NCBI GenBank assembly: GCA_020073465.1
Contig: JAIQFC010000006.1
Span: 124,001 to 188,000, forward strand
Source: Terriglobia bacterium
GTDB taxonomy: Bacteria; Acidobacteriota; Terriglobia; Terriglobales; Acidobacteriaceae
Direction: 5' to 3'
Length of the DNA: 64,000 nt
A program made the translations under genes and the position numbers. A model generated the notes under the pieces. That model was not told the origin of the DNA and did not search any database. It saw only the letters and a program-made list of their open reading frames with translations. Every line of letters starts with the position of its first letter. Positions within the stretch are counted from its first letter, which is position 1. This document shows, in pieces, positions 29,675 through 49,251 of this stretch.

Positions 29675-31177
29675 CTACTTGGCCTGCGTGTCATCTTCAA
29701 CCAGCTTGTAGCGGTAGCGTTCCCGTTCCTCCTTGGTTGCCTGCTGGCGAAGCAGGGCAAGCCGTTTCAGCAAGTCCGGAAGCTCAGAGGTCTTTCCCGC
29801 TTTCCGTAAAGCCTGGATCAGGTGATACAGCGCGGCTTGGTCCTTCGGATCGCTGTCCAGCGCTTTCCGCGATTGGGCGGCTGCTTCCGGATATTGCCCT
29901 GACTGCAGATAGAGCTTTGCCAGCACGCCCCGGGCGGCGCCCAGTGTCGGCCGTAGTGTGACTGCCTTCTTGGCTGAGCTCATCGCGGTCTGAAATTCAG
30001 GCGTGCCCGGCTCCGCACCCTTTTGCGTAAGGATGTCCGCCTGCAGGTAAAGCAGGATTGCATCGCCGGGTTTACGGGCTAGTTTCTCCTGAACTGTCAC
30101 GAGTGCATGGTCAAGATCGTTTTGTTGCGCTGCTGCCAATCCCTGGGCAGCTACGCTCAAGGACTGGCTGGGATCCAGTTCGTACGCGGTTTCAAAATCA
30201 GCCTGCGCTTTTTCGTATTCGGCCAGCTGCACGTGGAGAACACCTCGTGCAAAATACAGCGGCGCCGCCTTGGGCTGCTGTCCGATGCCTTCACTCACCA
30301 CGTTGATGCCCACCTGAAATGACTGGTGTGCCGACGAGATGGTGGCGAAATCCAGATAGAGATTAACGTTGTGCGGGTCCAGCAAAATGGCCTGGCGAAG
30401 GGTATCGACCGCCTTGGTTGTGTCGTGGGCGTCTTCGTACGCTGTGGATGCGAGTTCCAGAGTCTCTGTATCTGCGTTGTTGGTTCCGAGCAGCGGATCG
30501 AGGGTAGAAATGGCATCTTCTGGCTTGTGAGCCATCAGTTGGATCGATGCCAGCAGTTGACGTTCCTGTCGATCGTCAGGATTGAGTGCGAGGGCACGCT
30601 GGAAAACCTCGGCCGCCCGTTCGAACCGTTTCAGCTTCACAAGGCACGTGGCGTGTGCATGGAGAGCCTCGACTCGATCATCAAACAGCGTAGCGGCTTT
30701 TTCGAAATGAATAACTGCCTCGGCACAGTTTCCCTGCTGGTACTCGACTACCGCCAGCATGCCATGGCTGGTCGAATCACCGGGCCGCAAGCGCAGCAAA
30801 TGCTTAAGGAGAGGAATCGCCGCCGCGCTACCGGCTTCGTATTCAATTTGGGCGGCACCTTGCAGGGCCGGAATGTTGTCTGCCGATATCTTCAGCGCAC
30901 GGTGGAATGAAGCCAGCGCCTCCTTCTTGTTTCCGAGTTTAGAATACGCGACTCCCTGCATTGTCCAAAGCTGGTCGTTCTCGGGCGATCGCCGCAGCGC
31001 CGGCCGTAGAAGTTCGAGGGCTTGGTCGAACTGCCCATTCCGCAAAGCCGAGGCTATTGCTTCTGCTCCGTTGGTGCCAGTTTGACCGATCGCGCGGCAA
31101 CCAAAGAAAAGTAGAACAGCTACCAGAATGGCCAAGACAGCTCGGATCGAGTTAACGACTCTCATACGCCAGTACAT
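29675..31177 (-). CDS. TPR-repeat exported protein (copy A)
   Basis: A 500-residue protein with an N-terminal hydrophobic segment (SIRAVLAILVAVLLFFGC). A Cys at its end might be lipidated, although the lipobox is poor. About ten TPR units follow, for example LRNGQFDQALELLRPALRRSP, YSKLGNKKEALASFHRALKI, FERAAEVFQRALALNPDD and KLYLQSGQYPEAAAQSRKALDSDP. The C-terminus is basic (LLKRLALLRQQATKEERERYRYKL). It is a close paralogue of 36728-38218 along its whole length, for example DPKDQAALYHLIQALRK in both. Probably a periplasmic scaffold or adaptor of the TonB/ASPIC system. A terminator separates it from the receptor upstream, so it needs its own promoter in 31178-31271. Confidence 0.75.
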   Translation of the reverse strand: MYWRMRVVNSIRAVLAILVAVLLFFGCRAIGQTGTNGAEAIASALRNGQFDQALELLRPALRRSPENDQLWTMQGVAYSKLGNKKEALASFHRALKISADNIPALQGAAQIEYEAGSAAAIPLLKHLLRLRPGDSTSHGMLAVVEYQQGNCAEAVIHFEKAATLFDDRVEALHAHATCLVKLKRFERAAEVFQRALALNPDDRQERQLLASIQLMAHKPEDAISTLDPLLGTNNADTETLELASTAYEDAHDTTKAVDTLRQAILLDPHNVNLYLDFATISSAHQSFQVGINVVSEGIGQQPKAAPLYFARGVLHVQLAEYEKAQADFETAYELDPSQSLSVAAQGLAAAQQNDLDHALVTVQEKLARKPGDAILLYLQADILTQKGAEPGTPEFQTAMSSAKKAVTLRPTLGAARGVLAKLYLQSGQYPEAAAQSRKALDSDPKDQAALYHLIQALRKAGKTSELPDLLKRLALLRQQATKEERERYRYKLVEDDTQAK

Positions 31178-31261
31178 GCCGCCAACGCCAGCAGTAGCTA
31201 TCGTACTTCAAACCTCCTCATGTCCTCAGACGCTTGCCTGTTAAGGCGATACATTCTCCGA

Positions 31262-31301
31262 AGAAGACAAAACCGGCACGCTTCGCTGAAAGCGTGCCGG
31301 T
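31262..31301 (-). terminator. Rho-independent terminator after TonB receptor A
   Basis: Stem ACCGGCACGCTT (31272-31283) pairs perfectly over 12 bp with AAGCGTGCCGGT (31290-31301) around a 6-nt loop. On the minus strand it is followed by TTTTGTCTTCTTC, a T-rich tail. It lies 25 bp after the receptor stop at 31326. Confidence 0.85.
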
Positions 31302-31325: not shown

Positions 31326-34300
31326 TCAGAAGGAGATTCGCCCTCCGAGCTGCCAGAACCTGGGTTCGTGCGACAGCGTAGCGTGACCGAAATTCCCGTC
31401 TGGGAAGTTTGTATCCACATTGGTGTAGTTCGCCCGGTTGAAGAGGTTGAACAATTCGAACCGGAACTGGAAACCGACTCTTTCGGTGATTTTCGTGTCC
31501 TTGTAGAAGTTGATGTTGGTTTCAATGAAGTTCGGCCCACGGAACTGCATGGGCTTCTCACTTCCGCCCGCCGCACCGAAAGCGGGAACAGCGAAGTTGC
31601 TCTTTGGAATCGCCCCGGTGAGCCAGTCTTTGTTGTTGGTTAACTGCTTATAGCTAAGCGCATCGGGGTAATCGAGGTTATTCCCGTCGGCATTGTAATC
31701 GCCACTTCCGGGGGCATAGCCCACCGCCGGGTTCGCCTCCGATGGACAAGGAGGAGCACCGGTCGAGGTATCTTCGCAAACCGGGCTATAGCCATTGAAG
31801 TTCGAGGCCGTCAACGGATACCCAGACTGAAGAATGCTTGTGCCGCTGACTCCCCAGCCTCCCGTCAAATACCCGACGGCTCCCTTCCCGCCGTTCAACC
31901 CCTTCAGCGAGTAGTTGAAACTGACTGAAATGCGGTTGGGAACGTCGAAAATTGATGGTGCATAATACTGGGCCGGGTTCAGTGGTGTGGGATAGGCCAG
32001 ACCGTCGTCCTTGGAACGCGAACGAGTATAGGAAACGTCCACGTATCCACGCGAGAACCGGCCTTTCAAATCGAAATACACGGCGTTGTAATTGCCATAG
32101 CGATCGTTGTCCGCGTAAGCGATAGACCCGAAGCTCGGATTGAGACGTGTGGGCGCTATGCTTTCATGCGTGATCAGATCTCCCGGCGAGACGTTGATAT
32201 CCACTCCATAGGAAACATTCCCGATCGAGTTGCCATTGCCCACGATGTTGTAAGAGTGGGAACCGCTGTAGCCTACAGTAGCGGCAAAAGCATTGGTTAT
32301 CTTCCGCTGTACGCTCAAGGACCAGATATTTGACTTCGGGGATTTCAGTAGCGGATTAATTCCTCCGATGGCGAAATTTGCACCCACCACGCCACCCTGA
32401 GCATTAAGTCCGCCTGGGAACGTTGGGAATGTGAAGCCAAACGGCGGCTTGTTGCTAGTGCCGAGCCCGAAAATGGCGTTGCTTCCGAAAAACACTGGCA
32501 ATACCAAACCCGGAGGACTGCCGCGGAATTCTTCCTGCACGTTCGCGGAGGTAAGCCAGTTGTTGTATATGCCAAATCCGCCACGCACGACCCAATCGCC
32601 GTTGCTCGTGGGATCCCAGGCAAATCCGACGCGTGGACTGAACAAATTGTTCACGGAGTGCAGGAGAGCATTGTGCGTTCCCTTTGCGTAACCATTCGCA
32701 ATCTGCTGCTCTCTGGTATCTCCGGTTCCGAGATAGAAGTTTCCGAATACTGTCGCAGCACTCTTAGACCAAGGATTCCCGCTGTCGTCGTAGCGCAAGC
32801 CTAAGGTCAGCGTCAGGTTCCTTCTCGCCTTCCATGTATCTTCAACAAACAGTCCAAAGGTCCTGGCAGCCGCGTCCCAATTCCACAATTGCTGGTTGCC
32901 AGTCGCCGGGTTGTACATAACACCGTTCTCGTTATTAGGAGCATCCTGCGCCAGCTTCAACAGGTTGTCGAAGACAAACTTGGGTTGTGACCAGGGACCC
33001 TGGAAGGGTTCCACATCATCTCCATACCAGCCCTCGTAACCAAACTTCAGGGTGTGTGTGCCTCGGACGTGAGTCAGCACATCGCGCCAGTGGTAGTTGT
33101 GCTGAATAAAATCACCTTGTGCAAAACCCACTCCATAGGCTTGTCCCGCGTCCGCGTTGATCCCGTTTACAGATATGGAAGGCACCGTATAGTCTTTTGC
33201 GCCGCTCCCCAGCACGCCTTCCACGCGGCTCTGACCTGCCGTGAACTCATTCAGCGTGGACGGCGAGAACGTATGCGTCCACGATACCTGACCTGCGACC
33301 TGCCAGGTATTGTTCAGGGCGGAGAACTGAGGCATGGAAGATGGAGCCCCAGTCTGGAGAAGAGTCCGGAATAGGCTGACGTAGATTCGATCCTTCTTGA
33401 ATCCTTGATCGATGCGCGCGAAATATTGCGTGCCGTTGCGGATTGAAACAGCACCGAACCCACCCGTATCAATCATTGGCAGGTCGCAGGGAATGTTATC
33501 AACTGCGGGCGTCCCGCATACGGTGTCGCCAAAAATGGTCGACGCCGTCGCTTGCACTCCGACATTGCCCACGCCAGATGGCGAATAGGTGCTCAGGATT
33601 TGCGTTCCAACAGTATTCGGGTGATTCGTCTGCGCCCACGAGATAAACTCCGGCGCCGCAAATGTGACCGATCCTCCCGCGCTAGTGGATGAGCGCAATG
33701 GCTCAACGGCAAAGTAGAAGAAGCTATTGTGGTGCGGAATGATCGGCCCACCCACAGCAAAATCCATGTTGTTGGAATGGAATTTTTTGTACGGATTTTC
33801 TTTCGAGCTTACGAAATGCTGATTCGCGAACATGCCCTGGTAATTGAACCAGTCCGCCACAGAACCGTGGAACTGATCGGTGCCAGACCTCGTCGTGAAC
33901 AAAGTCTGCAATCCAGCGGCGCGGCTATATTCGCTTGAGAAGGTATTAACCTGCACGCTGGTTTCCTGAATGGCTTCTGGCTGCGGCGTCAGGTTCAAAA
34001 CGCCCTGGCGGATCCCGCTGGTGACGTCCAGTCCGTCTATTACGTACTGATTGTTGTTCTGGCCCTGGCCGTTCGCGCTGGCATCGACCTGCTCTTCCGT
34101 GGAGAAGTTGTCCACACCAGAAGCCGGACTTCCCGATGAACTCGTTCCCAAGCCTGAGACTCCCGGCGCCAATGTCACGAGCGTGACAAGATTGCGGCCC
34201 ACAACCGGCAACTGAGCCACTGCCTGGTTCTCGATCGTTAACTGAGTGCGGCTGTCGGCGGTGTCAACAATCGGCGCCTCCGTACTCACCACAATGGACT

Positions 34301-34652
34301 CAGACACTGATCCAACTTTAAGCGCAATCGGGAGGTTGAGGTTTTGTGCTGTCAAGAGTGTCACGTTGGCCTCTGACTTGGAGAAGCCGGCGGCTTCGAC
34401 CGTGACCTTGTAGTTGCCGGGGGCGAGGCTCACAAAGCGATAGTTTCCGTCAGCGTCGCTGGTGGAGACGGCCGTGACGCCCGTGGCCACGTTCACCAAC
34501 GTGACAGTGGCTTTACCGATTCCGGCGCCGCTGGGGTCTTCGACCAAGCCTTGGATGCTGGCGGTGAACTGTGCGAAGGCGGCTGCACTGGCGATGAGCA
34601 GGATGCCGATCAGCAAGCAGATCGAACGGTGAGATGTCATGCGACGTGGCAT
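31326..34652 (-). CDS. Oar-like TonB-dependent receptor A with carboxypeptidase-regulatory domain
   Basis: A 1108-residue outer-membrane receptor, presumed importer of oligosaccharides. The signal peptide runs to LIASAAAFAQF. The carboxypeptidase-regulatory-like beta-sandwich follows (IQGLVEDPSGAGIGKATVTLV through NYRFVSLAPGNYKVTVEAAGF). The plug domain follows from about residue 105 (TQLTIENQAVAQLPVVGRNL) and the remainder is a beta-barrel rich in aromatic and Gly residues, ending GGRISF with the C-terminal Phe typical of outer-membrane proteins. The start at 34652 fits GGAGGGA upstream better than the Met at 34640. It has its own promoter and LacI-type box at 34701 and its own terminator. 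No SusD-like gene accompanies it. Confidence 0.88.
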   Translation of the reverse strand: MPRRMTSHRSICLLIGILLIASAAAFAQFTASIQGLVEDPSGAGIGKATVTLVNVATGVTAVSTSDADGNYRFVSLAPGNYKVTVEAAGFSKSEANVTLLTAQNLNLPIALKVGSVSESIVVSTEAPIVDTADSRTQLTIENQAVAQLPVVGRNLVTLVTLAPGVSGLGTSSSGSPASGVDNFSTEEQVDASANGQGQNNNQYVIDGLDVTSGIRQGVLNLTPQPEAIQETSVQVNTFSSEYSRAAGLQTLFTTRSGTDQFHGSVADWFNYQGMFANQHFVSSKENPYKKFHSNNMDFAVGGPIIPHHNSFFYFAVEPLRSSTSAGGSVTFAAPEFISWAQTNHPNTVGTQILSTYSPSGVGNVGVQATASTIFGDTVCGTPAVDNIPCDLPMIDTGGFGAVSIRNGTQYFARIDQGFKKDRIYVSLFRTLLQTGAPSSMPQFSALNNTWQVAGQVSWTHTFSPSTLNEFTAGQSRVEGVLGSGAKDYTVPSISVNGINADAGQAYGVGFAQGDFIQHNYHWRDVLTHVRGTHTLKFGYEGWYGDDVEPFQGPWSQPKFVFDNLLKLAQDAPNNENGVMYNPATGNQQLWNWDAAARTFGLFVEDTWKARRNLTLTLGLRYDDSGNPWSKSAATVFGNFYLGTGDTREQQIANGYAKGTHNALLHSVNNLFSPRVGFAWDPTSNGDWVVRGGFGIYNNWLTSANVQEEFRGSPPGLVLPVFFGSNAIFGLGTSNKPPFGFTFPTFPGGLNAQGGVVGANFAIGGINPLLKSPKSNIWSLSVQRKITNAFAATVGYSGSHSYNIVGNGNSIGNVSYGVDINVSPGDLITHESIAPTRLNPSFGSIAYADNDRYGNYNAVYFDLKGRFSRGYVDVSYTRSRSKDDGLAYPTPLNPAQYYAPSIFDVPNRISVSFNYSLKGLNGGKGAVGYLTGGWGVSGTSILQSGYPLTASNFNGYSPVCEDTSTGAPPCPSEANPAVGYAPGSGDYNADGNNLDYPDALSYKQLTNNKDWLTGAIPKSNFAVPAFGAAGGSEKPMQFRGPNFIETNINFYKDTKITERVGFQFRFELFNLFNRANYTNVDTNFPDGNFGHATLSHEPRFWQLGGRISF

Positions 34653-34700: not shown

Positions 34701-34754
34701 GAAAACGTTTACTAAAGCGGATAATGTATAAATACTATCGTCGGCGGGTGTCAA
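34701..34754 (-). promoter_or_regulatory. Promoter and LacI-type operator of TonB receptor A
   Basis: On the minus strand TTGACA (complement of 34749-34754) is followed after 17-18 bp by TTATAC/TATACA (34725-34731). The box GAAAACGTTTAC (34701-34712) lies just downstream of the expected transcription start, the same arrangement as in the isomerase-kinase operon. Confidence 0.65.
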
Positions 34755-34860: not shown

Positions 34861-36648
34861 CTAGCTCCGGCTCCAGCCTTTGCTGGCGACGATTCCGGAT
34901 CCTTCTCGGACTGTTATGAGTTGGTTCGCGGTGATCTTCTTGTACTGTTCGCGCAGACCGTTGGGCCAGTACACTTCAACGTCGGCCACACTCGACGCAC
35001 CCAGACCAAAATGCAGGCGGGGATCGTTGCACGAATAGAAGCTGGACTGGCTGAGCACTGCCTGCGCCTGTACCTTGCCGCCATAGCGGACCAGGACTCG
35101 CGCGCCGATGGCGCTGCGGTTTGACTTCGTCCCTTCCAGCTTGACCTTGATCCAGTTCTGCTTGACCTTTAGGTCGTTTCGCAGTAGGGACGGCGGCTCG
35201 TTCAGATTCACAATCAGAATGTCTACATCGCCGTCGTTGTCGAAGTCCCCAAACGCACAGCCCCGGCTGCAATGAGCTTCCGTTACGCCCGGGCCAGCCT
35301 CCTCCACCAGTTCCTCGAACGTGCGGTCGCCCAGGTTACGAAACACCGCGCGCGGCGTCTTGTTCGCGTATTGGGGCAACTTACGCTCGACTTCCGGATA
35401 CACATTACCTGTAACCATGAACAGGTCAGGATAGCCGTCGTTGTCGAGATCGGTGACGCCAGCGCCCCAGCAGATGTAGCGGGTCTCGACCGCGATGTGC
35501 GCGGCGTGGGTCACATCGTCAAAGCTTCCCTTCCCGTCGTTGTGAAAAAGGCCATTCGCATCATCCGCAAAGTGAGTCTTGAAGAGATCGAGATGCCCGT
35601 CCAGATCGTAGTCTCCTACGCCCACGCCCATCCCTGCCTGTTCCACTCCGTCGTCGCTCAGCGCCACGCCACGAACCACGCCCTCCTCCCGGAAGGTCCC
35701 GTCGTGGTTATTCATGAACAGCAGACTGGGCGTGGAATCGCAGGCCACAAAGATGTCAGGCCATCCATCTTCATCGAAATCCGCGGCGACGACGGTCATT
35801 CCATAGCTTTCGGTCGCACTCGCAATGCCGGCTTGCTGGCTCACGTCGGAAAACGTTCCATCGCCATTGTTGCGATACAGCGAGTGCCTTCCCGTGGGCA
35901 ACCCGCGGGGTCCGCATTCCACCGGCACCCCCTTCCAGTTGCAGTTGACATTCTCCCCTGGTACGGGCGCGTGCTCAAACGAGAAGCGAATGTAGTTGGA
36001 CACGAACAGGTCGAGACGCCCGTCACGGTTGTAGTCCAGGAAACTGCAACCAGCGCCCCACCGCGGCTGATCGTTCCAGAGCCCCGCGGTCTTGGTGACG
36101 TCCGTAAAGGTGCCGTCGCCGTTGTTGCGATACAGGCGATTTTGTCCAAAGTACGTGCAGAAGATGTCCTCAAAACCATCGTTGTTATAGTCTCCGATGC
36201 AAACTCCCGACGCCCAGCCCGCCATCTTCAGACCAGCCTTCTCCGTTACGTCGGTAAACGTGCCGTCCCGGTTGTTCTTATAAAGGCGGTTCGTAGATTC
36301 GGGCGGGTCGCCGGTCAGTCGAGTTCCAGACAACAGGAAAATATCCATCCAGCCGTCGTTGTCATAGTCGAGAAAAGCGCAGCCGCATCCCGTGGACTCA
36401 AGAATGTACTTCTTTGAGTCCACTCCGCCATAGATGACCGGGGCGCGCAGTCCTGCAGCAGAAGCCACGTCAACAAAACGGGCATTGAACGGCCGGCCCG
36501 AAAGAGCCGGCCTCGCCATGGGCTTGGTTGTGTGTTGGGACACTCCCTGCGCAAGAAGCTGTGCTGCCGTTGCCGAGATCATCGAGCCCAGGGAGAGTTG
36601 CAGAAAGCTGCGGCGAGTAAAGGTCTTCACTTTTGGCTTCGCTGACAC
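34861..36648 (-). CDS. ASPIC/UnbV (CRTAC1-type) beta-propeller protein A, Tat-exported
   Basis: A 595-residue exported protein. Twin-arginine signal TRRSFLQLSLGSM near residues 11-23. It has seven FG-GAP/VCBS-type blades, each with a calcium-binding-like DxDxDG motif (DYDNDGWMD, DYNNDGFED, DYNRDGRLD, DFDEDGWPD, DYDLDGHLD, DLDNDGYPD, DFDNDGDVD), consistent with a seven-bladed propeller. The C-terminal ASPIC/UnbV domain (IGARVLVRYGGK to DVEVYWPNGLREQYKKI) closes it. The role is unproven; a calcium-dependent sugar- or surface-binding partner of the adjacent TonB receptor is the working idea. A LacI-like box at 36694 precedes it. Confidence 0.82.
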   Translation of the reverse strand: MSAKPKVKTFTRRSFLQLSLGSMISATAAQLLAQGVSQHTTKPMARPALSGRPFNARFVDVASAAGLRAPVIYGGVDSKKYILESTGCGCAFLDYDNDGWMDIFLLSGTRLTGDPPESTNRLYKNNRDGTFTDVTEKAGLKMAGWASGVCIGDYNNDGFEDIFCTYFGQNRLYRNNGDGTFTDVTKTAGLWNDQPRWGAGCSFLDYNRDGRLDLFVSNYIRFSFEHAPVPGENVNCNWKGVPVECGPRGLPTGRHSLYRNNGDGTFSDVSQQAGIASATESYGMTVVAADFDEDGWPDIFVACDSTPSLLFMNNHDGTFREEGVVRGVALSDDGVEQAGMGVGVGDYDLDGHLDLFKTHFADDANGLFHNDGKGSFDDVTHAAHIAVETRYICWGAGVTDLDNDGYPDLFMVTGNVYPEVERKLPQYANKTPRAVFRNLGDRTFEELVEEAGPGVTEAHCSRGCAFGDFDNDGDVDILIVNLNEPPSLLRNDLKVKQNWIKVKLEGTKSNRSAIGARVLVRYGGKVQAQAVLSQSSFYSCNDPRLHFGLGASSVADVEVYWPNGLREQYKKITANQLITVREGSGIVASKGWSRS

Positions 36649-36693: not shown

Positions 36694-36705
36694 GTAAAGG
36701 CTTAC
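36694..36705. promoter_or_regulatory. Degenerate LacI-type operator before ASPIC protein A
   Basis: GTAAAGGCTTAC, within GAGTAAAGGCTTACTG, keeps both outer arms (AGTAA/TTACT) but not the ACGT core. It lies 46 bp upstream of the ASPIC start at 36648, between it and the TPR gene behind. Confidence 0.45.
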
Positions 36706-36727: not shown

Positions 36728-38218
36728 TCAATGCTGCGCCTCTTCTTTGACTGGCGCGCTTTCCTCCACGAGTTTGTACCGGTTACGCACTCTCTCTTGC
36801 CTGGTCGCGTCTGCGCGGAGTTCGGCCAGCCGCTTAAGCAAATCGGGCAACTCGCCTTTCTCTCCGGTTTTCCGAAGCGCCTGGATCAGATGGTACAGCG
36901 CCGCCTGGTCCTTCGGATCGCTGTTCAGTGCCTTTCGGCACTGTTCCGCCGCAGCCTGATTCTGTCCTGCCTGCAGATAGAGCTTCGCCAGCACGCCGCG
37001 GGCGGCACCGAGGCCAGGCTGGAGTTCCACCGCCTTTTTTGCCGAACGCAGCGCTGAATCAAAGTCCGGGCTGCCCGGGGCCGTTCCCTTTTGCGCGAGG
37101 ATGTCCGCCTGCAGGTACAACAGAAATGGATCGTTCGGTTTCTTTGCCAGCTTCGATCGCACTGTGGCCAAAGCCCGGTCCAGGTCGTTTTCCTGCACGG
37201 CCTTCAAACCTTGCGCGGCCGACCCAATCGATTGCGTGGGATCGAGAGAGTTTGCCTTTTCAAAATCAGCCTCGGCGTCATCGTACTGCGCCAATTGGAC
37301 GTGAAGCACCCCGCGTGCGACATAGAGAGGCGCCGCATCTGGTTGCAGTTTGAGCCCGCTGTTGATCACGTCGATGCCAACCTGAAACGACTGGTGGTCC
37401 ATGGAGATGTTAACGAAGTCGAGATAAAGGTCGACGTCGCGCGGATCGGTCACAATCGCCTGCCGCAGCATACGAACTGCTTCAGGCGTGTCGCCGTCAG
37501 CCTCGTACGCAGATGCTCCCAGCTGCAGGGTTCTGGCGTCAACACTCGTTGCCTGCAGCAACGGTGCGAGCGTGGCAATCGCGTCCTTGGCATGCTCAGC
37601 CATCAACTGGACTGTTGCCAATTGGAAGCGCAGATGATTGTCTGCCGCGTTCCGGTCTAGAACTCGTTGGAATATAGCGATCGCCTGGTCCATCTGCTTG
37701 AGCTTCACCAGGCACGCCCCGTACTCCTGCAATGCTCCTGGTTGCGCATCCACCAGAGAACCGCTTTGGGCAAAGTGCTCTACCGCTCCCGCACAGTCAC
37801 CTTTCTTATAGGCAAGCACGGCCAGCATGGCATGGCTGGTTGGATCTTTCGGCCGCAGTTTCAGTACATGGTGCAACAACGGAACCGCGTCTTGGCCCCC
37901 GCTCTCGTACTCAATCTCTGCCGCTCCTTCCAACGCAGCCAGATAGTCCGGCGAAATGCCCAGCGCCTTGCGGAACGCGACGAGCGCTTCCCTTTTGTCT
38001 CCCTTGCCGGATAGGGCAATGCCGCGCAGGGTCCACAGTTGCGGACTCTTGGGACTCTGTTCCAGTTCCGGCTGGAGAAGTTGCAGTGCCGTGTCGAATT
38101 GTCCCGCACGCAGCGCAGAGCTAATTGATCCAATCCGATCTGTCGTGGTCTGAGCAACGATAAAGGAGCAGGCGACGAGCAGGGCAGCCAGAACGCCAAA
38201 CCGGATGGGGCAACGCAT
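36728..38218 (-). CDS. TPR-repeat exported protein (copy A')
   Basis: A 496-residue paralogue of the TPR protein at 29675. Start chosen at 38218 (MRCPIRFGVLAALLVACSFI), which places the signal peptide at the very N-terminus; a frame extension to 38269 has no support. Repeats run from LRAGQFDTALQLLQPELEQSP to KLYLQAGQNQAAAEQCRKALNSDP, and the tail LLKRLAELRADATRQERVRNRYKL mirrors the other copy. Together the two copies bracket the TonB A / ASPIC A pair, pointing to a duplicated module. It is divergent from ASPIC protein B at 38398, with a weak operator-like site between. Confidence 0.75.
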   Translation of the reverse strand: MRCPIRFGVLAALLVACSFIVAQTTTDRIGSISSALRAGQFDTALQLLQPELEQSPKSPQLWTLRGIALSGKGDKREALVAFRKALGISPDYLAALEGAAEIEYESGGQDAVPLLHHVLKLRPKDPTSHAMLAVLAYKKGDCAGAVEHFAQSGSLVDAQPGALQEYGACLVKLKQMDQAIAIFQRVLDRNAADNHLRFQLATVQLMAEHAKDAIATLAPLLQATSVDARTLQLGASAYEADGDTPEAVRMLRQAIVTDPRDVDLYLDFVNISMDHQSFQVGIDVINSGLKLQPDAAPLYVARGVLHVQLAQYDDAEADFEKANSLDPTQSIGSAAQGLKAVQENDLDRALATVRSKLAKKPNDPFLLYLQADILAQKGTAPGSPDFDSALRSAKKAVELQPGLGAARGVLAKLYLQAGQNQAAAEQCRKALNSDPKDQAALYHLIQALRKTGEKGELPDLLKRLAELRADATRQERVRNRYKLVEESAPVKEEAQH

Positions 38219-40507: not shown

Positions 40508-40530
40508 TCCCGCCGTCTGTGGGGGTTATT

Positions 40531-41744: not shown

Positions 41745-41756
41745 GTAAACGCTTAC
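41745..41756. promoter_or_regulatory. LacI-type operator before TonB receptor B
   Basis: GTAAACGCTTAC in the context GAGTAAACGCTTACC lies 72 bp upstream of the receptor start at 41829. The adjacent promoter elements are not clear. Confidence 0.65.
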
Positions 41757-41828
41757 CGGAGACTGGGTCTGGCACGGCGCGCTTCGATCGCGTAGCGGTT
41801 TCATGGAACTCGAAAAGGAGCAGTGGCT

Positions 41829-44800
41829 ATGAACGGCGTCCCACGTCGCGGTACGGGCAGTCTTTCGCTGACCCGCCTTTGGCTTTTGCTTTCTGTCGTG
41901 ATTATTTCCGTTAGCGCCTTCGCACAGTCGAATTTGGGAGCGATTGCCGGGACCGTGTTGGATCCCACAGGAGCAGTGGTTCCCAATGCGAAGATCACCG
42001 CTCGGGATCCTTCTACCGGTACCACTTACGACACTGTATCCAGCAGCGCCGGTTCGTACCGGATTGGATCCGTACGCCCGGGCACCTATCACGTGACGGT
42101 CAGTGTCGAAGGCTTCAAGAAAGCCGAACTGACGGGCGTAATCGTTCAAGTCGGCGACACGAGATCTCTCGATGTCCACCTTCAGCCCGGTGCGGTCACG
42201 GAAAGTGTCCAAGTGCTGGCCGATGCCCCGGCGATCCAAACCGAGAGCTCAGAAATTGGCACCGTGGTGACCACGAAACAAGTTCTGGAGTTGCCGCTGC
42301 CTCTGGGCGGCGCGGTCCAGGCAATGCGATCTCCGGAGGCATTTGTCTTCCTGACTCCGGGAACCGTCGGCCCCGGCACGGGTGGGTACAACCCGACGAA
42401 CTTTTCCGGCTCGAATGGCGGCACCTTCGAATCGAAGATCACCGGCGGCCAGAACTACGCAACTGAGGTTCTGTTAGACGGTGCCAGCACATCCCGCTCG
42501 GAGAATGGTTCCTCGTTTGACGAGACTGCGCCTTCGGTGGATGCCCTAGGCGAGTTCAAGGTATTCACGTCCACCCTGGCACCGGAAATGGGTCGTACCA
42601 CCGGCGGAATTGAAAGCTTCACCACAAAATCCGGAACGAACTCCTTCCACGGAACCGCTTACGACATTTTCCGCAACGAGGACATGGATGCGAATCTCTG
42701 GTTCAACAATCTCCAACTGTCTCAGACCAACGATCCAGCGACACGGGCCCTGTTTCAACGTCCTCTCGACAAGCAGAACGACTACGGCTTGACGTTAGGC
42801 GGACCGCTGTTGATCCCGAAGCTCTACAACGGCAGAGACAAGACCTTCTTCTTCTTCTCGTGGGAGCAATACCGGCAGCATCAGGGTGGCGTCAACAACG
42901 TTGCCGTGCCCACCGCGAATGAGCGTAACGGGGATTTCTCCGAACTTCTGGACACGAACACGGTGCTCGGTACGAACCCCTGTGACGACACTCCCATTTA
43001 CGCCGGCGAGATTTTTGATCCGGCGACCACACAGGTCGTGCAAACCGGCACTGGCCCTGTGGAATGCCGCACCGCGTTCATGAACGAACCGGGAAGCACG
43101 GGGAACGTTATTCCACAGAACCGCTGGTCGACGGTTGGTCAGAACATCCTTTCGTTTTACCCTCAACCCCAGCAGACCACCGGACCGAGAGTTCCAAATT
43201 TTGCATTTGCCTTCAGCTATCCCATCCTCGACACGTCCATGACCATACGCGTCGATCAGAACATCCGCACCAATCACAAGCTGTACTTCACCTACAACTC
43301 GCGGGATAACACTCGTCTTTCCACGACTCCCGAGTTCGACAATCCAGCCGGGGCGGGGCGCTTCCAGGACTTTTTCACGCACTACATCCGCATCGGCTAC
43401 GATTACGCGATCAGCCCAAGCATGCTGAATCACCTGATCGCGGGCTACAACCGCACGAACAGCCGGAACACCGGTGCGGGCGTGCGATTTGGGAAGAACT
43501 GGGCCGACGAACTGGGAATCACCAACACGGCGGCGACAGGTTCAAGTGGGATCACATTCCCCTCCATAAACGTCGATGACTATACCGGGATGGGAGACAG
43601 TGTAAACGGTGACACGATTGACAACGGCTTCCGCCTCGTTGACAGCCTGAGTTGGATCAAAGGAAGGCACGACTACAAATTCGGCGCGGATTTCCGCTAT
43701 CAGCAGTATTCACCGCTGAACTTCTCCAATACCGCCGGCACCTATCATTTTAGCCACGGCCAGACAGCTGCTACCCCCGGCACGGGACTGCAAACCGGAG
43801 ACGCCATTGCCAACATCTTGTTGGGAATGCCCAACGATGCCAACCTGACCGCATATTCCACGCAAGCGCGTTGGCTCTCGGACTACTACGCGCTCTATTT
43901 TCAGGACAGTTTCAAGCTCAAGCCCAATCTCACATTGAACTACGGCTTGCGCTGGGAAGTGGATGTGCCCCGCAGAGCTTCCGAGGGGGCCACTTCGAAT
44001 CTGAGCCTGACCACTCCCAATCCCGGCGCAGACGGTTTCCCCGGGGCCTTGGTCTTCGCCGGCAGTGGCGCCGGACGCAATGGGAACGTGAACGAGCGCT
44101 GGGTGAACACCTGGTACAAGGACTTTGGACCCAGGGTCGGCTTCGCCTGGTCGCCGGGAGTTTTGCATGGCAGGACAGTGGTTCGCGGAGGCTTCGGTAT
44201 TCTCTACGGATTCCTCCTTTATGCCGATTTCGGCGGCTTCCAGAGGACCGGGTTCCAAGCCAATCCCGGGTTTGCTCTGAATGGCTTCGATCCTGCATTT
44301 AATCTGGATTCGGGTGTACCCTCCTGGACCCCGCCGCCCAACCTCGATCCGACGCAACTGAACTACCAGGGAGCGCAGTACCTGGATCCCTCCTCCGGGC
44401 GTCCTCCGATGATCAACAATTGGAGCATCGAAGTGCAGCACGAGATCACCAAGGACATGATCCTGAACGTCGCCTATGTGGGACAGCACTCTACGCATCT
44501 GCGAACGAACTACGACGCCCGCAATTCGCTGACGCCGAATTTCCTCGACCTGGGCACGTTGCTGAATGCGCCTTTCACATCCCAGAGCACTGTGGCCGCG
44601 CCCTACCCGAGCTTTACCGCCGCTGCCGCAGCCCGTAACCTCATCACCGCCCAAGCGCTGGTGCCCTTTCCGCAGTATTTTGGCTTCAATACGGATGGCA
44701 CCCTGGAGGCCTTTGGTCAATCCAGCTACAACGCACTGCAGGTTTCGCTCAAGCGTCGTTTCCGCGACAACCTGAACCTGCTTGTGTCCTATACCTACTC

Positions 44801-45509
44801 CAAAACTCTCACCGATGCCGACGCCGCCCTGCCGTTCTTTGCGACCTTGCATGGCGGTGGCAGCGCGCAGAATCCGTTCAACTTGAATGGAGAAAAAGCA
44901 ATCAGCAATCAGGATGTGCCCCACAATCTTGTCATCAGCTACATCTATGAGCTTCCGTTCGGCAAGGGCAAGAAATTCCTCAACAAGGGAGGCGTAGCCG
45001 ACAGGCTCGTAGGTGGTTGGCAAATCAGCGGAATCCATCGTTACCACAGTGGCCAACCGCTTTCCTTCTCGGGAGGCACGGGCATTCCCGCCTTTGCGGG
45101 CACGATTCGGCCCGACCGCGTAGCCGGCGAGTCTCTTTACAGCGACCAGTGGCGCAGTGGACACTTCAACCCCCTGACTGATCCTATGTTCAACGCCGCT
45201 GCCTTCACTGATCCGAATGCGGCTTGTGCGATTTCCTGCTCGCAGTACACCTTCGGCAACGTGCCTCGGACCACCGGCGAAGTGCGCATGCCTTGGTATC
45301 TCGAAGAGGACTTCAATCTTTTGAAGAGATTCAAATTCACGGAAAGCAAGGAAATCGTGCTGCAAACCAACGCGATTAACATCTTCAACCGACATCTGTT
45401 CGATCGGCCGCCGCTGAATCCGTTCATCGGGAATTTTGGCTTTGTGAATACGGCCAACTCGATCACCTTTCCGCGAAGACTACAGCTGAAGTTGGAGTTC
45501 CACTATTAG
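41829..45509 (+). CDS. Oar-like TonB-dependent receptor B with carboxypeptidase-regulatory domain
   Basis: A 1226-residue outer-membrane receptor. ATG 41829 is preferred over GTG 41823 because AAGGAG lies 8 bp upstream. The signal peptide ends ISVSAFAQS. The regulatory-like domain is IAGTVLDPTGAVVPNAKITA through SYRIGSVRPGTYHVTVSVEGF. A plug follows (ELPLPLGGAVQAMRSPEAFV), and then a long barrel with FFFFSWEQYRQ and YNALQVSLKRRFRDNLNLLVSYTYSKTLTD, ending LQLKLEFHY with a terminal aromatic. It resembles receptor A in plan but is 118 residues longer and clearly diverged, so the two probably take different oligosaccharides. Confidence 0.88.
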   Translation: MNGVPRRGTGSLSLTRLWLLLSVVIISVSAFAQSNLGAIAGTVLDPTGAVVPNAKITARDPSTGTTYDTVSSSAGSYRIGSVRPGTYHVTVSVEGFKKAELTGVIVQVGDTRSLDVHLQPGAVTESVQVLADAPAIQTESSEIGTVVTTKQVLELPLPLGGAVQAMRSPEAFVFLTPGTVGPGTGGYNPTNFSGSNGGTFESKITGGQNYATEVLLDGASTSRSENGSSFDETAPSVDALGEFKVFTSTLAPEMGRTTGGIESFTTKSGTNSFHGTAYDIFRNEDMDANLWFNNLQLSQTNDPATRALFQRPLDKQNDYGLTLGGPLLIPKLYNGRDKTFFFFSWEQYRQHQGGVNNVAVPTANERNGDFSELLDTNTVLGTNPCDDTPIYAGEIFDPATTQVVQTGTGPVECRTAFMNEPGSTGNVIPQNRWSTVGQNILSFYPQPQQTTGPRVPNFAFAFSYPILDTSMTIRVDQNIRTNHKLYFTYNSRDNTRLSTTPEFDNPAGAGRFQDFFTHYIRIGYDYAISPSMLNHLIAGYNRTNSRNTGAGVRFGKNWADELGITNTAATGSSGITFPSINVDDYTGMGDSVNGDTIDNGFRLVDSLSWIKGRHDYKFGADFRYQQYSPLNFSNTAGTYHFSHGQTAATPGTGLQTGDAIANILLGMPNDANLTAYSTQARWLSDYYALYFQDSFKLKPNLTLNYGLRWEVDVPRRASEGATSNLSLTTPNPGADGFPGALVFAGSGAGRNGNVNERWVNTWYKDFGPRVGFAWSPGVLHGRTVVRGGFGILYGFLLYADFGGFQRTGFQANPGFALNGFDPAFNLDSGVPSWTPPPNLDPTQLNYQGAQYLDPSSGRPPMINNWSIEVQHEITKDMILNVAYVGQHSTHLRTNYDARNSLTPNFLDLGTLLNAPFTSQSTVAAPYPSFTAAAAARNLITAQALVPFPQYFGFNTDGTLEAFGQSSYNALQVSLKRRFRDNLNLLVSYTYSKTLTDADAALPFFATLHGGGSAQNPFNLNGEKAISNQDVPHNLVISYIYELPFGKGKKFLNKGGVADRLVGGWQISGIHRYHSGQPLSFSGGTGIPAFAGTIRPDRVAGESLYSDQWRSGHFNPLTDPMFNAAAFTDPNAACAISCSQYTFGNVPRTTGEVRMPWYLEEDFNLLKRFKFTESKEIVLQTNAINIFNRHLFDRPPLNPFIGNFGFVNTANSITFPRRLQLKLEFHY

Positions 45510-45602: not shown

Positions 45603-47363
45603 ATGATCAAGATGGGCTTCGCTCATTCACGTGGCATGGGAGAGATTCGTAAGTATGCGCTGGCTGCCACGCTTTGTCTCCTGGCCATTCCGCTCTGCGG
45701 ACTTGCTCAACAGGGTGCTCACGCACCGTCTGAGGGGAGCGGCACACCAAGTGTCACCAGGTTCGAAGACGTCACCGCAAAACTAGGCATTCATTTCCAG
45801 CACCAAGCCTCTCCCACTGCGAAGAAATATCTGCTCGAGACCATGGGATCGGGCGTCGCCCTGCTCGACTATGACAATGACGGCCGCCTGGATATCTTCC
45901 TGACCAATGGCGCGCGCATTGATGATCCGACGCCAAAGGGCACGATTCCGCTCAAGGACGCTCCCAAGTACTGGAATCGCCTCTATCACCAGAAAGCCGA
46001 CGGCACCTTTGAGGATGTCACCGAAAAGGCTGGGTTGGCGGGATCCGGGTATTCTACCGGCGTAGCGGTTGGGGATTACGACAACGACGGCTATGAAGAT
46101 ATCTTCGTTGCTGGATTTGGTCACAACACTCTCTATCACAATAACGGCGATGGCACTTTCAAAGACGTAACGGAGACGGCAGGAGTAGGCGGTTCGGGCT
46201 GGTCTACGAGCGCAACGTGGGTGGACTATGACAACGATGGGCGCCTGGACCTCGTAGTCGCCCGGTACATGGAATGGACTTTCGACGATATCTACTGCGG
46301 TGAGCATCGGGAAGGACATCGCGCGTATTGCCATCCTGATCTATTCAAGCCAATCCCCCCTCTCCTCTATCACAACGACGGCAATGGAAGATTCAGCGAG
46401 GTTGGGCACAAGGCTGGGCTGGATAAGCCCTGCAAGGGGCTGGGAGTCGCTATTGCCGATTATGATCGCGATGGTTGGCCAGATATCTTGATTGCTAACG
46501 ACGCGATTCCTGAGTTTCTATTTCACAACAAGGGTGACGGCACCTTTGAAGAGGTAGGCATGGTTTCGGGAGTCGCGTTGGACGGAAGCGGTACCACTTA
46601 TTCGGGCATGGGGGTGGATTTCGCAGACTATAACAATGATGGGTGGCCTGACGTGATCATAACCAACCTGGCAAATCAAAGATACGCGCTCTTCTCTAAC
46701 ATGAGAGATGGTACGTTTGACTATGCGAGCAACGTAACTGGAATCGGGCCGATTACACTACTACACTCGGGATGGGGCGTCCGCTTCTTCGATTACGACA
46801 ATGACGGTTGGAAGGACCTGTTTGTGGCGCAGTCTCACGTCATGGACACGATCGAAATCAATGAGCCGCATCTCAGGTATCGCGAGACGCCTTTGTTGCT
46901 GCATAACGAAGGAGGGAAAAAATTTGTGGACGTTTCCGCCAGTGCAGGCGATGTTTTTCAACAGCGTTGGGCGGCGCGAGGACTGGCGATTGGCGACATC
47001 AACAACGATGGCAAGATCGACGTTGTCATCAGTTCCACCAATGGTTCGGCATGGGTACTCCTGAATGAAACTGTTGCTGCAAACCACTGGTTAACGTTCA
47101 AGCTCGAAGGCGTAAAGAGCAATCGGGACGGTATTGGCGCCACTGTGAGAATTTCCACCTCATCAGGAAACCAATACGCCACTGTGACCACGGGAAGCAG
47201 TTATCAGTCTTCGAGTGATCCAAGGGTGCACTTTGGGCTCGGCACTGAGACGTCGGCAAGACTTGTTGAAATTCGCTGGCCCAGCGGGATTGTGCAGACC
47301 CTCAAAGCCGTAAGCGCGGACCAGTTGGTGAAGGTGAAAGAGGCCGTCGATTCGTCCCATTAG
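45603..47363 (+). CDS. ASPIC/UnbV beta-propeller protein C, secreted
   Basis: Up to 586 residues. The signal peptide (KYALAATLCLLAIPLCGLAQQ) suggests that the start may be the ATG at 45636 rather than 45603. Seven blade motifs occur (DYDNDGRLD, DYDNDGYED, DYDNDGRLD, DYDRDGWPD, DYNNDGWPD, DYDNDGWKD, DINNDGKID), followed by the ASPIC/UnbV domain (IGATVRISTSSGNQYATV to LVEIRWPSGIVQTLKAV). It is separated from the next TPR gene by only 10 bp, so ASPIC C and TPR C form one transcription unit. No LacI-type box was found in its upstream gap. Confidence 0.82.
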   Translation: MIKMGFAHSRGMGEIRKYALAATLCLLAIPLCGLAQQGAHAPSEGSGTPSVTRFEDVTAKLGIHFQHQASPTAKKYLLETMGSGVALLDYDNDGRLDIFLTNGARIDDPTPKGTIPLKDAPKYWNRLYHQKADGTFEDVTEKAGLAGSGYSTGVAVGDYDNDGYEDIFVAGFGHNTLYHNNGDGTFKDVTETAGVGGSGWSTSATWVDYDNDGRLDLVVARYMEWTFDDIYCGEHREGHRAYCHPDLFKPIPPLLYHNDGNGRFSEVGHKAGLDKPCKGLGVAIADYDRDGWPDILIANDAIPEFLFHNKGDGTFEEVGMVSGVALDGSGTTYSGMGVDFADYNNDGWPDVIITNLANQRYALFSNMRDGTFDYASNVTGIGPITLLHSGWGVRFFDYDNDGWKDLFVAQSHVMDTIEINEPHLRYRETPLLLHNEGGKKFVDVSASAGDVFQQRWAARGLAIGDINNDGKIDVVISSTNGSAWVLLNETVAANHWLTFKLEGVKSNRDGIGATVRISTSSGNQYATVTTGSSYQSSSDPRVHFGLGTETSARLVEIRWPSGIVQTLKAVSADQLVKVKEAVDSSH

Positions 47364-47373
47364 TACTCCTGCC

Positions 47374-49251
47374 ATGTCGCTCAGAGCACCAAACTTCCTT
47401 ATCTGCATCGCACTGTTGGCGGCGATGGCGCCACTTGCCCGCACGCAGTCCCCCAGTTTCGTGGCTGCCATGAAGCTGTTTCAACAGCAACGCTGGGAGG
47501 AAGCTGCCTCAGCGTTTCAGGCCATTGAAACATCCTCGCCAGGAGAAACCGACGCTCTTCTATACAAGGGAAAGTCGCTCATCAATCTGGGCAGGTTCGC
47601 AGATGCCGACCCTGCACTTGTGGCCTACAGTGCGGCGCATCCCCAGTCGGACGAAACGCTGTACTTGCTGGCTTATACGCACTTCCGGGAGGGCAAACCC
47701 GAGGAATCACTCAATTTGTCGACGCGAGCCGCGAAGTTGAGGGCACCCGAAGCGGACGACCTCAAGATTGTGGCTCTGGATTACGTTTTACTGAATGACC
47801 TGGCCAGCGCTTCTCGCTACCTTCAGCAATCTCTGCAATTGAAACCCAATAACGTCGAGGCGCGCTATGCCCTGGGACGCGTCCTCTACCAGCAAAACCA
47901 GTTTGATCAAGCCATCACTGCGTTTCAGGAAGTGCTGCGCATCGATCCTCGCAACGTCAAGGCCCAGGACAATCTCGGTTTGGCATGGGAAGGAAAGAAT
48001 GAAACCGAGCAGGCGATCGCAGCTTACCAGAAGGCTATCGAAATGGACAAAGCCGCGGCGCATCATTACGAGCAGCCGTTCTTGAACCTGGGAACGCTGC
48101 TGAGCAAGCTGAATCGAAGCGAAGCGGCCATACCGCTGCTCACGCGCGCCATTGAAATCGACGCCGGCTCCGCCCAGGCACACCTGGAGCTGGGCCGGGC
48201 CTACTTCAATGCCAGTCAGATGGACAAGGCGCAAGGCGAACTGGAGGAGGCCGCGCGTCTGCAGCCCCAAAAACGCGAAACGCACTATTTATTGGGCCGC
48301 CTCTATCAGCGATTGGGAAAGACCGACCAAGCGAAAGATGAGTTCAAGACCACCGAGGACCTCATCCATGCAGAGGGCGGCAATGCCGCCGACGTGCGAC
48401 CGCGTGAGCCGGAGCCGCAAGCTGCCTCGAAAGCAGGACCCGGCACAGAACAAAAGCCCTCCCCGCCGGTCCAGGCTTTGAGATCGGACGCTGCAAAAGC
48501 GTTGCGAGACGGCGAACTCGAGAAGTCGCTGTCGATTCTCATCCAGGCCCGCAAGGCCGCTCCCACCGATCCCGATGTGAACTATGAATTTGGGACAGTG
48601 GCGCTGCGTATGGGCTTGTATCCGGACTCCGCGGAAGCGCTACAGCAGGCTCTGTCCTTACGTAGAGACGATCCAAATGCGCTGTATGCTCTCGGCAGAG
48701 CGAAGATGGGCCTGGGCAAGTTTCAGGATGCCCGCGAACTTTTTGCCCGGTATGTTCAGCTGCGCCCAGAGGACGCCAGCGGCCACTATGGTCTTGGCGT
48801 GATTCTTCGCATGTCGGACGCGACCACTGAGGCCAGGCAAGAGCTTCAGAGGTCGATTGATCTGCAGCCGGCGCAGACCGAAAGCTACGTGCAACTCGGC
48901 AAACTGGAACTCGACAAAGGTGATTTGGAGGGAGCCGCGGGACAATTCAACCGCGTGTTGAAACGTTATCCCAGGCATCCGGAAGCGCTGATGGGCATGG
49001 GAGAAGTGCACTTTCAGCGAAAAGACTATGCTGCTGCCGCTTCTCTTCTGCGCGATGCCACAGCTGCGAGTCCGGCCTTACGCGAAGCCCACTACTACCT
49101 CGGCCTCGCGTATGCACGACTCAAACAACCCGAGGACTCGAAGCGGGAGCTGGACATCGCGAGCAAACTGGAGCACGAGGAACTGGACAAGCAAAGAACA
49201 CTCCTGAAGTTGCTGGATCCGGGCGAACTCGATTCCGCCCAACAGAAATAG
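47374..49251 (+). CDS. TPR-repeat exported protein C
   Basis: A 625-residue protein with a signal peptide (FLICIALLAAMAPLARTQS). It has two TPR blocks separated by a Pro/Glu/Lys-rich linker at about residues 335-370 (RPREPEPQAASKAGPGTEQK). Repeats include FQQQRWEEAASAFQAIE, YALGRVLYQQNQFDQAITAF, LDNLGLAWEGKNETEQ-type units, YLLGRLYQRLGKTDQAKDEF, and in the second block YALGRAKMGLGKFQDARELF and YVQLGKLELDKGDLEGAAGQF. It is co-transcribed with ASPIC C. It converges with the GH43 gene 10 bp away, with no visible terminator. Function is presumably scaffolding; no catalytic motif. Confidence 0.75.
   Translation: MSLRAPNFLICIALLAAMAPLARTQSPSFVAAMKLFQQQRWEEAASAFQAIETSSPGETDALLYKGKSLINLGRFADADPALVAYSAAHPQSDETLYLLAYTHFREGKPEESLNLSTRAAKLRAPEADDLKIVALDYVLLNDLASASRYLQQSLQLKPNNVEARYALGRVLYQQNQFDQAITAFQEVLRIDPRNVKAQDNLGLAWEGKNETEQAIAAYQKAIEMDKAAAHHYEQPFLNLGTLLSKLNRSEAAIPLLTRAIEIDAGSAQAHLELGRAYFNASQMDKAQGELEEAARLQPQKRETHYLLGRLYQRLGKTDQAKDEFKTTEDLIHAEGGNAADVRPREPEPQAASKAGPGTEQKPSPPVQALRSDAAKALRDGELEKSLSILIQARKAAPTDPDVNYEFGTVALRMGLYPDSAEALQQALSLRRDDPNALYALGRAKMGLGKFQDARELFARYVQLRPEDASGHYGLGVILRMSDATTEARQELQRSIDLQPAQTESYVQLGKLELDKGDLEGAAGQFNRVLKRYPRHPEALMGMGEVHFQRKDYAAAASLLRDATAASPALREAHYYLGLAYARLKQPEDSKRELDIASKLEHEELDKQRTLLKLLDPGELDSAQQK

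Follow-up and report, generated by a model that had tools for sequence, protein, structure and literature searches.

Glycan uptake in Bacteroidota rests on SusD, and the polysaccharide utilization loci (PULs) of that phylum bring a TonB-dependent receptor with a CarboxypepD-type N-domain together with exported partners, carbohydrate-active enzymes (CAZymes) and sugar-responsive control. A receptor of related build, with an N-terminal PF13620 domain and a TonB-dependent barrel, is Oar of Myxococcus xanthus, where secretion of the PopC protease requires Oar and the Ton system (PMC6434023). Here we describe nine genes at positions 29675-49251 of a 64,000-nucleotide stretch of DNA (hereafter the window; C54:124001-188000, GenBank contig JAIQFC010000006.1) from the acidobacterium Terriglobia bacterium, whose genome (G000) amounts to 5.9 Mb in 67 contigs. 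They encode two Oar-like TonB-dependent receptors, three propellers of the ASPIC/UnbV family and four tetratricopeptide repeat (TPR) proteins. The locus has the features of a SusC-SusD PUL listed above, and differs in that no SusD is found in the genome (three families), the receptor barrel is of the Oar type (PF25183), TPR and ASPIC proteins stand in place of SusD/SusE and the regulator likely acts in trans. With modest confidence, we read these genes as a module without SusD that takes up L-arabinose-containing plant glycans by means of TonB energy, and as one of several genomic copies of an Oar-TPR-ASPIC module that recurs in acidobacteria.

Two further systems invite comparison. L-arabinose regulons of the AraR/LacI type have, as here, one palindrome at the LacI gene, araD, kinase and isomerase-like genes and arabinosidases, the difference being that the present regulon includes three Oar-ASPIC-TPR sets. 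CRTAC1 combines an FG-GAP propeller with an ASPIC domain and is the closest solved structure to the propellers, but it is an animal extracellular protein, and we know of no connection between it and glycan uptake, nor of any ASPIC or TPR partner of M. xanthus Oar. Neither a published function for bacterial ASPIC/UnbV proteins nor a joint mention of ASPIC/UnbV and SusD was found in one library of open-access papers, outside of which lie subscription journals and preprints. ASPIC/UnbV appears there together with TonB in a table of paralogues (PMC3174227) and as a domain only in a Poribacteria study (PMC3909097).

The nine-gene set and its operator

The gene calls come from a simple script that takes the longest frame and often over-calls starts, and the cut-offs of the analysis were set after the window had been seen. 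Open reading frames (ORFs) and Pfam agree on the composition proposed in an earlier, sequence-only reading of the window: the receptors carry CarboxypepD_reg and OMP_b-brl_4, that is, the PF13620 N-domain and TonB-type barrel of Oar-like receptors, and the propellers carry FG-GAP and UnbV_ASPIC, the PF07593 domain following the FG-GAP propeller as in the CRTAC1/ASPIC-UnbV family. On the minus strand, TPR1 (29675..31177, 500 aa) lies in line behind Oar1 (31326..34652, 1108 aa), next to ASPIC1 (34861..36648, 595 aa, seven Ca-loop motifs of the DxDxDGxxD type) and TPR2 (36728..38269, 513 aa, possible lipobox LVAC), which is 58% identical to TPR1. The plus strand holds ASPIC2 (38398..40356, 652 aa, five such motifs), TPR3 (40411..41694, 427 aa as an ORF, its start probably downstream of an operator at 40464), Oar2 (41823..45509, 1228 aa), ASPIC3 (45603..47363, 586 aa, seven motifs) and, in line behind it, TPR4 (47374..49251, 625 aa). 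For all but one of the nine proteins, a crude script detects a hydrophobic stretch at the N-terminus, and the exception, ASPIC1, has by eye a Tat-like RRSFLQ start; export, as previously claimed, is thus predicted, while a location at the surface is at most a putative one.

Several genes of the set indeed share the operator of the glycosidases. The palindrome GTAAACGTTTAC has 16 sites in the window at up to two mismatches, against 0.76 expected, and these include sites 49 bp before Oar1 (GAAAACGTTTAC, 34701..34712), 67 bp before Oar2 (GTAAACGCTTAC, 41745..41756), inside the probably over-called start of TPR3 (GTATACGTTTAC, 40464..40475) and, in a weaker form with two mismatches, 46 bp before ASPIC1 (GTAAAGGCTTAC, 36694..36705). 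Across the genome there are 13 sites at up to one mismatch (three for the reversed-pattern control), ten of them inside one 59-kb locus, C54:116755-175641, a concentration with a simple binomial probability of 3e-18 for a stretch that was picked after the fact. Of the other three, C33:51803 is situated some 140 bp ahead of the helix-turn-helix of a LacI gene (C33:50661-52085, one of only seven LacI genes in the genome), inside the frame as called, the first ~140 residues of which are probably untranslated. C58:96050 precedes a gene nearest to L-ribulose-5-phosphate 4-epimerase (araD; 1jdi, E 2e-69), downstream of which are a symporter-like gene and an isomerase paralogue (by eye and via relatives in the genome G004), and C14:99002 falls between GH31-like and GH3-like genes. 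Since ten of the 13 sites are found here and the others at LacI, araD and GH31/GH3 genes, the two Oar receptors belong to an L-arabinose regulon. By sequence, one palindrome is shared by the regulator gene, the catabolic genes and those for uptake, TonB-dependent receptors and CAZymes among them, and the regulon is most likely controlled by an autoregulated LacI repressor acting in trans. A related pattern, CAAACGNTTGC, gave 79 matches at two mismatches against 68 expected, which is chance level, and was set aside.

Among the relatives, G004, which belongs to another genus, has a close relative of the LacI gene (E 4e-152) with araD, symporter, isomerase, FGGY kinase, GH127, GH51, GH5 and one ASPIC gene in an arabinose cluster that spans 16 kb and has three operators. 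In G016 (95566 and 107495) and G008 (1029556), isolated sites close to the consensus are found ahead of Oar or in the gap that separates an Oar gene from a divergent ASPIC gene. Of the sites in relatives, only these promoter sites and the G004 cluster carry weight.

A recurrent Oar-TPR-ASPIC module

In order to define the neighbourhood of ASPIC genes, 29 regions of 10.9-20 kb from four relatives (G008, G014, G016 and G018), a selection of the listed hits of which one (L152) holds no ASPIC, were compared with 31 regions of 20 kb chosen at random from those genomes (20 from G016, eight from G008, two from G014 and one from G018). TPR genes occur in 22/29 ASPIC regions versus 3/31 random ones (p 2e-7), and Oar genes, detected with a profile built from eight receptors of G000, in 18/29 versus 6/31 (p 0.0013). 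An Oar-only set was made of 20 regions, from about 33 counted by eye, in G000; for gene order, six Oar genes from random regions were added to it (n=28), and the two Oar genes of the window were left out of the whole count. Of the 24 Oar genes with an ASPIC no more than 10 kb away, 13 have a TPR (11) or ASPIC (2) gene behind them in line at a distance of up to 300 bp, whereas none of the 28 away from ASPIC do (p 4e-6).

Reciprocal best matches, sought among the proteins of the fetched ASPIC neighbourhoods, give five window genes a copy on contig C35, near a LacI gene and a GH30-like gene: Oar2 (31912-35805), TPR3 (35903-37147), TPR4 (37162-38232), ASPIC2 (38219-40063) and ASPIC3 (47259-48977), the last standing 7 kb from the others. 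This argues that the module was duplicated as a whole unit. Natural ASPIC-TPR fusions are present on C21, C33 and in seven named loci, and fusions of the Oar N-domain (CarboxypepD_reg) with TPR on C21 and in L087. The C21 region (L014:6922-19998), and also L154 and L087, show a repeated ASPIC-TPR fusion, a CarboxypepD_reg-TPR fusion and Oar; on C21 the ASPIC-TPR fusion contains an AhpC/TSA domain, and a nucleoside hydrolase and a ribokinase-like gene (by eye) are nearby, as if for nucleosides.

The named loci are the best 80 of 449 relatives in a scan of species genomes and lean to close kin; two (L117 and L125) gave no ASPIC call with our own profile and were left out. In the remaining 78 loci, a TPR gene is found within 2.5 kb of ASPIC in 37/57 acidobacterial and 13/21 other loci, the class of other phyla including a few records that bear no phylum name, and Oar is within 10 kb of ASPIC in 19/38 long acidobacterial loci. 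A single Oar clade as the partner of ASPIC was rejected: the Oar tree needs 14 changes (shuffled mean 19.2; 7/500 as low), and the partnership is accordingly weakly clumped and often gained or lost. The module is therefore real and recurrent, co-regulated to judge by its sequence and in part co-inherited; these properties, like the fold of its propeller, come from computation.

SusD and the ASPIC propeller

The statement that no SusD homologue is present holds for the whole genome, in which the SusD families PF07980, PF14322 and PF12771 have no match at E 0.01. The proposal built upon it, that ASPIC and TPR proteins replace SusD and SusE, has to be divided. ASPIC was found beside SusD in two loci on two plasmids. 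In Hymenobacter volaticus the order is GH127, two other genes, LacI, a GH127-type gene, TonB receptor, SusD and then ASPIC; in Gemmatirosa it is a LacI-like start (by eye), SusC-type receptor, SusD, two ASPIC genes (the first with a lipobox-like LAAGC), a second receptor (by eye) and SusD. Because ASPIC is directly downstream of SusD in both, in the position of an accessory binder, it appears to be an addition to SusCD and not a substitute, which contradicts the replacement of SusD/SusE by ASPIC. For TPR the proposal is half right, as these proteins occupy the place of SusD in gene order only. What stands is a co-regulated set next to CAZymes that is SusD-less, TonB-linked and recurrent as a unit. 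The ASPIC proteins directly behind SusD (L130:11878-15153 in Hymenobacter and L194:8756-12208 in Gemmatirosa), of about 1100 aa, have an ASPIC domain flanked on either side by FG-GAP repeats and are 44% identical across two phyla. The other Bacteroidota record, Spirosoma, has ASPIC and no SusD in the 25 kb listed.

An AlphaFold2 (AF2) model of ASPIC3 is confident (pLDDT 92.7, pTM 0.89). Its top Foldseek match is CRTAC1 (9etn, E 3e-33), followed by fungal lectins of the PVL/AAL/PAL type, several of them solved with GlcNAc, and further down by PL11 lyases, and a second aligner gives CRTAC1 a Z of 42.8 (455 residues, rmsd 2.2) and ADAM22 one of 31.1. A viral fold library returned various propeller-like proteins and was uninformative. 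The lectins are propellers as well, but the resemblance is one of fold at 16-17% identity and their ligand is not transferable to ASPIC. In a set of 49 ASPIC sequences, every His, Tyr, Lys and Cys stays below 90% conservation; what is conserved is mostly Ca-loop Asp, Gly, Asn and hydrophobics with a single Glu, Arg, Trp and Met, and ASPIC is for this reason more likely a binder than an enzyme. The AF2 model of Oar1 is of low confidence (pLDDT 60.1), and the Oar profile has weak matches in the PDB to other TonB receptors and to carboxypeptidase-D-like domains, with no chain named Oar among them.

Carbohydrate genes around the module

The link of the module to glycans is good, though not exclusive. 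The Pfam lists of neighbours show 25 of about 140 families for ASPIC+Oar loci and 25 of 147 for Oar-only loci, and the CAZyme numbers drawn from them are lower bounds. The 91 neighbours (within 7 kb) of ASPIC+Oar loci are led by at least seven LacI, seven multiheme cytochromes, about five GH2, three GH3, two melibiases and two fucosidases; unlike them, the 94 neighbours of Oar-only loci have aminotransferases and tRNA synthetases at the top of the families listed, with a single trehalase, GH42 and GH88. LacI genes alone number 7/91 versus 1/94 (L206:6272-7318). Scored with a 40-seed library, which missed GH95, GH53, GH116 and GH38 as was later seen, CAZymes occur in 9/18 ASPIC+Oar regions of the four relatives versus 2/20 Oar-only regions of G000 (p 0.011). 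Annotated plasmids agree in kind. Granulicella pACIX902 has TPR, multiheme cytochrome, TonB, CRTAC1, esterase, GH30, GH28 and a GH28-related gene, with GH88 and LacI; pACIX901 has TonB, TPR and two CRTAC1 genes in the vicinity of GH88; Acidisarcina pACPOL3 has GH172, Oar, CRTAC1 and TPR, with LacI and fucP. The suggestion that such triplets accompany CAZymes is in this way partly upheld.

In the window, CAZymes flank the nine genes on both sides (three GH127-type, GH31, GH39, GH43, GH5 and two arabinofuranosidases), together with sugar-acid and pentose genes, and further operators stand among them. To the left lie a GH127-type beta-L-arabinofuranosidase (809..2752, plus strand, nearest solved relative 5opj) and a GH31 ORF (7264-9615 as called), within the first 40 bp of which is a perfect operator (9579..9590) that is also 65 bp before a major facilitator superfamily (MFS) gene (9655-10905). 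Next come an L-fucose-isomerase-like gene (17242-18690; operator 57 bp before it, 17174..17185) followed by FGGY kinase, epimerase and GH39 genes, and a GH127 beta-L-arabinofuranosidase (23222..25300, minus strand, nearest 6ex6 and the GH127 structure 4qjy), with an operator (25413..25424) between it and an aldo/keto reductase (25562-26692). A GH127-type protein (27688..29631, plus strand) has an operator (27725..27736) inside its probably over-called start. To the right, an operator (50399..50410) separates divergent GH43 (49261..50397, minus strand) and GH5-like (50423..51580, plus strand) genes, and a perfect one (51630..51641) is 74 bp before two alpha-L-arabinofuranosidases with Alpha-L-AF_C (51715..55066, plus strand), which we take to be GH51-like. 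Between the aldo/keto reductase and the GH127-type gene, the product of 26682-27719 has a periplasmic-binding-protein fold (Peripla_BP_4), with no match to the LacI helix-turn-helix and no clear signal peptide from its likely start, MKRFRLVVS. The edge of the glycosidase locus (55248-58488) holds, consecutively, a Fer4_5-type iron-sulfur protein, DUF6599 and DUF362, and 59084-63235 encodes a protein of 1383 aa that combines NHL repeats with Big_3_5 Ig-like domains and whose start looks like that of an exported protein.

A third set (L001), composed of an Oar (C54:112689-116705), two ASPIC and two TPR genes, lies to the left of the window and extends with one of the TPR genes into its first 683 bases. 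An operator separates the starts of its divergent Oar and ASPIC genes, and the set adjoins two prolyl-oligopeptidase-family peptidases, a GH27-like gene and a proline-racemase-family gene. Close by, at C54:100150-105094 (L221:16150-20000 and L001:114-1094), is a probable hydroxyproline (Hyp) operon with aldehyde dehydrogenase (ALDH), DHDPS-family, FAD oxidase and proline racemase family genes, the order of the first three presumably being that of 4-hydroxyproline catabolism, and enzymes of the same kinds follow a GH127 pair on Granulicella pACIX901 (L197:33545-45760). GH127 enzymes act on Hyp-linked beta-L-arabinosides. Given this probable operon, the prolyl peptidases and GH127, we infer that the locus may serve arabinosylated, hydroxyproline-rich plant wall glycoproteins as well as arabinan. 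Arabinan, which the earlier reading named, is too narrow in any case, since the regulon is one for L-arabinose. Because no operator at up to two mismatches occurs in L221 or L222, the hydroxyproline genes are to be taken as neighbours and not as proven members of the regulon.

Unexpectedly, ASPIC frequently has multiheme cytochromes for neighbours: proteins with at least three CXXCH motifs, some with TPR repeats, occur in 12/29 ASPIC regions, 1/31 random and 0/20 Oar-only regions, and in 9/18 of the ASPIC+Oar regions. An Oar-less cluster at C33:77634-86386 (L008:15634-20000 and L009:1-4386) comprises a five-heme cytochrome c554-TPR protein, ASPIC and a TPR-ASPIC fusion, with hydrogenase-like genes (by eye) on the same contig, and its gene order is the same in L053 and L055. 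Cytochrome-TPR proteins are next to ASPIC in L070, L074, L083, L103, L114 and L124, and the cytochrome-ASPIC pair is also found in planctomycete records. Proteins of about 400 aa with seven CXXCH recur near ASPIC, TPR, Oar or GH genes in several loci (L005:1702-2856, L126:6981-8243, L136:1325-2557, L149:15969-17183, L153:12106-13314 and others).

Alternative readings

In regards to the uptake reading, a number of observations weigh against it. The excess of CAZymes in ASPIC regions over random ones is not significant (11/29 versus 7/31, p = 0.26), and the comparison with Oar-only regions, for CAZymes as for TPR (15/18 versus 6/20), sets relatives against G000. For some ASPIC+Oar sets, the small number of nearby proteins that were scanned included no recognised carbohydrate gene, namely C63 (neighbours a molybdenum-cofactor enzyme and a Sel1 protein), L137 (Nramp) and L145 (RNase); at these last two and at L141 (lipase maturation factor and MFS) one or two proteins each were scanned. 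Prolyl peptidases, as said, stand beside the third Oar set. A TPR protein as a hidden SusD was rejected, the profile comparison giving a probability of 0.3% and no similarity. Outside the rule applied, a TPR gene is nonetheless near two of the 28 Oar-only genes (L208, in line at 620 bp; L210, on the other strand), Oar1 and ASPIC1 lack a reciprocal best copy, and TPR1 and TPR2 are reciprocal to each other. The operator shows no overall excess over the reversed pattern in five relatives (5 vs 6 in G014, 4 vs 14 in G008, 3 vs 8 in G016, 2 vs 4 in G018 and 8 vs 6 in G004); in G014, the site C1:290017 is located within the coding frame of an ASPIC-TPR gene and probably matches by chance. Over the 23.6 kb read, the arabinose locus of G004 lacks both Oar and TPR, and its ASPIC has no operator directly before it, the nearest being the one before the downstream epimerase gene. 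Outside Acidobacteriota the Oar profile finds an Oar gene in 0/17 long ASPIC loci, 9/26 genomes of the order have no ASPIC, and CRTAC1 genes stand with no Oar or SusD in view in Acidisarcina pACPOL4 (with TPR), Spirosoma, Phaeobacter and Catenovulum. Finally, a crude lipobox pattern is present in only 3/49 TPR and 7/61 ASPIC proteins, and both may for that reason be periplasmic.

The scarcity of lipoboxes bears on a different direction of transport, since most ASPIC and TPR proteins would then need a route across the outer membrane. By analogy with M. xanthus, where Oar and the Ton system are needed for PopC secretion (PMC6434023), the receptor could act outward and secrete or display ASPIC, TPR or glycosidases, with TPR as a periplasmic hand-over factor; the shared CarboxypepD_reg N-domain and the CarboxypepD_reg-TPR fusions would fit. 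However, the acidobacterial sets are tied to sugar operons and share their regulon with sugar catabolism genes, and ASPIC also adjoins SusC-SusD, an import pair, which makes export unlikely to be their role. It could also be asked whether the clustering is a by-product of paralogue-rich families within one genome, given 21 ASPIC matches, dozens of Oar genes (the barrel is matched by 68 stretches, with several to a gene) and the scatter of ASPIC-linked receptors on the Oar tree; the random and Oar-only controls, the ASPIC-TPR fusions and the occurrence in other genera and phyla speak so clearly against this that we give it hardly any credence.

Two other readings concern what ASPIC does. The cytochrome neighbours, in ASPIC regions far more often than in random or Oar-only ones, the repeated cytochrome c554-TPR/ASPIC/TPR-ASPIC cluster and the AhpC/TSA domain within an ASPIC-TPR fusion are what would be expected if ASPIC and TPR were part of an extracytoplasmic redox complex with multiheme cytochromes that glycan loci borrow for oxidative or electron-shuttling steps. 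No called ORF of the window contains CXXCH, though, the ASPIC genes included, the SusD loci L130 and L194 have no protein with at least three such motifs, and neither Cys nor His is conserved at 90% in ASPIC, and we find this somewhat less plausible still than export. That ASPIC is itself an enzyme, a sugar dehydratase or lyase, could be argued from the general propeller fold it has in common with fungal aldos-2-ulose dehydratase (Z 28.5 for the ASPIC3 model, 355 residues, rmsd 3.3) and from the PL11 rhamnogalacturonan lyases among its Foldseek matches; CRTAC1 scores far higher, and conservation is mostly confined to Ca-loop and hydrophobic residues with His, Tyr, Lys and Cys below 90%, so that a catalytic role seems improbable, a shade more so than the redox one.

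Returning to glycan uptake, which is the best reading, we infer sugar and calcium binding, tethering, complex formation, surface location and import. The LacI repressor encoded at C33:50661-52085 would hold down the arabinosidases, the arabinose pathway and the three Oar sets through GTAAACGTTTAC and be released by an arabinose-derived sugar, both the identity of the repressor and its ligand being putative. Exported enzymes of the GH127, GH43 and GH51 types would cut side chains; ASPIC, as a CRTAC1-fold propeller with five to seven calcium-loop motifs, may hold the resulting oligosaccharide or glycopeptide in the manner of the accessory binder beside SusC-SusD; the TPR solenoid, in the gene-order place of SusD, could tether ASPIC to the receptor; and Oar would import the ligand using TonB energy.

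Conclusions

If carried further, Oar-TPR-ASPIC might be a second, independently evolved outer-membrane architecture for the capture of glycans and glycopeptides, with an integrin-like calcium propeller as binder and the TPR solenoid as a SusD-like dock, and with many copies wired to multiheme cytochromes so as to couple capture to extracytoplasmic electron transfer; as a whole this is a speculation that we regard as doubtful. Many soils harbour abundant acidobacteria, and the one described here has genes for plant-polymer degradation without the SusD on which Bacteroidota depend. Its arabinose regulon, taken together with the probable hydroxyproline operon, points to plant wall glycoproteins as food. 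The co-regulated, co-duplicated Oar-TPR-ASPIC genes provide a testable answer both to how uptake may proceed without SusD and to what ASPIC/UnbV proteins may do, and the module offers a means of picking out the sugar carriers among the numerous Oar receptors of a genome.

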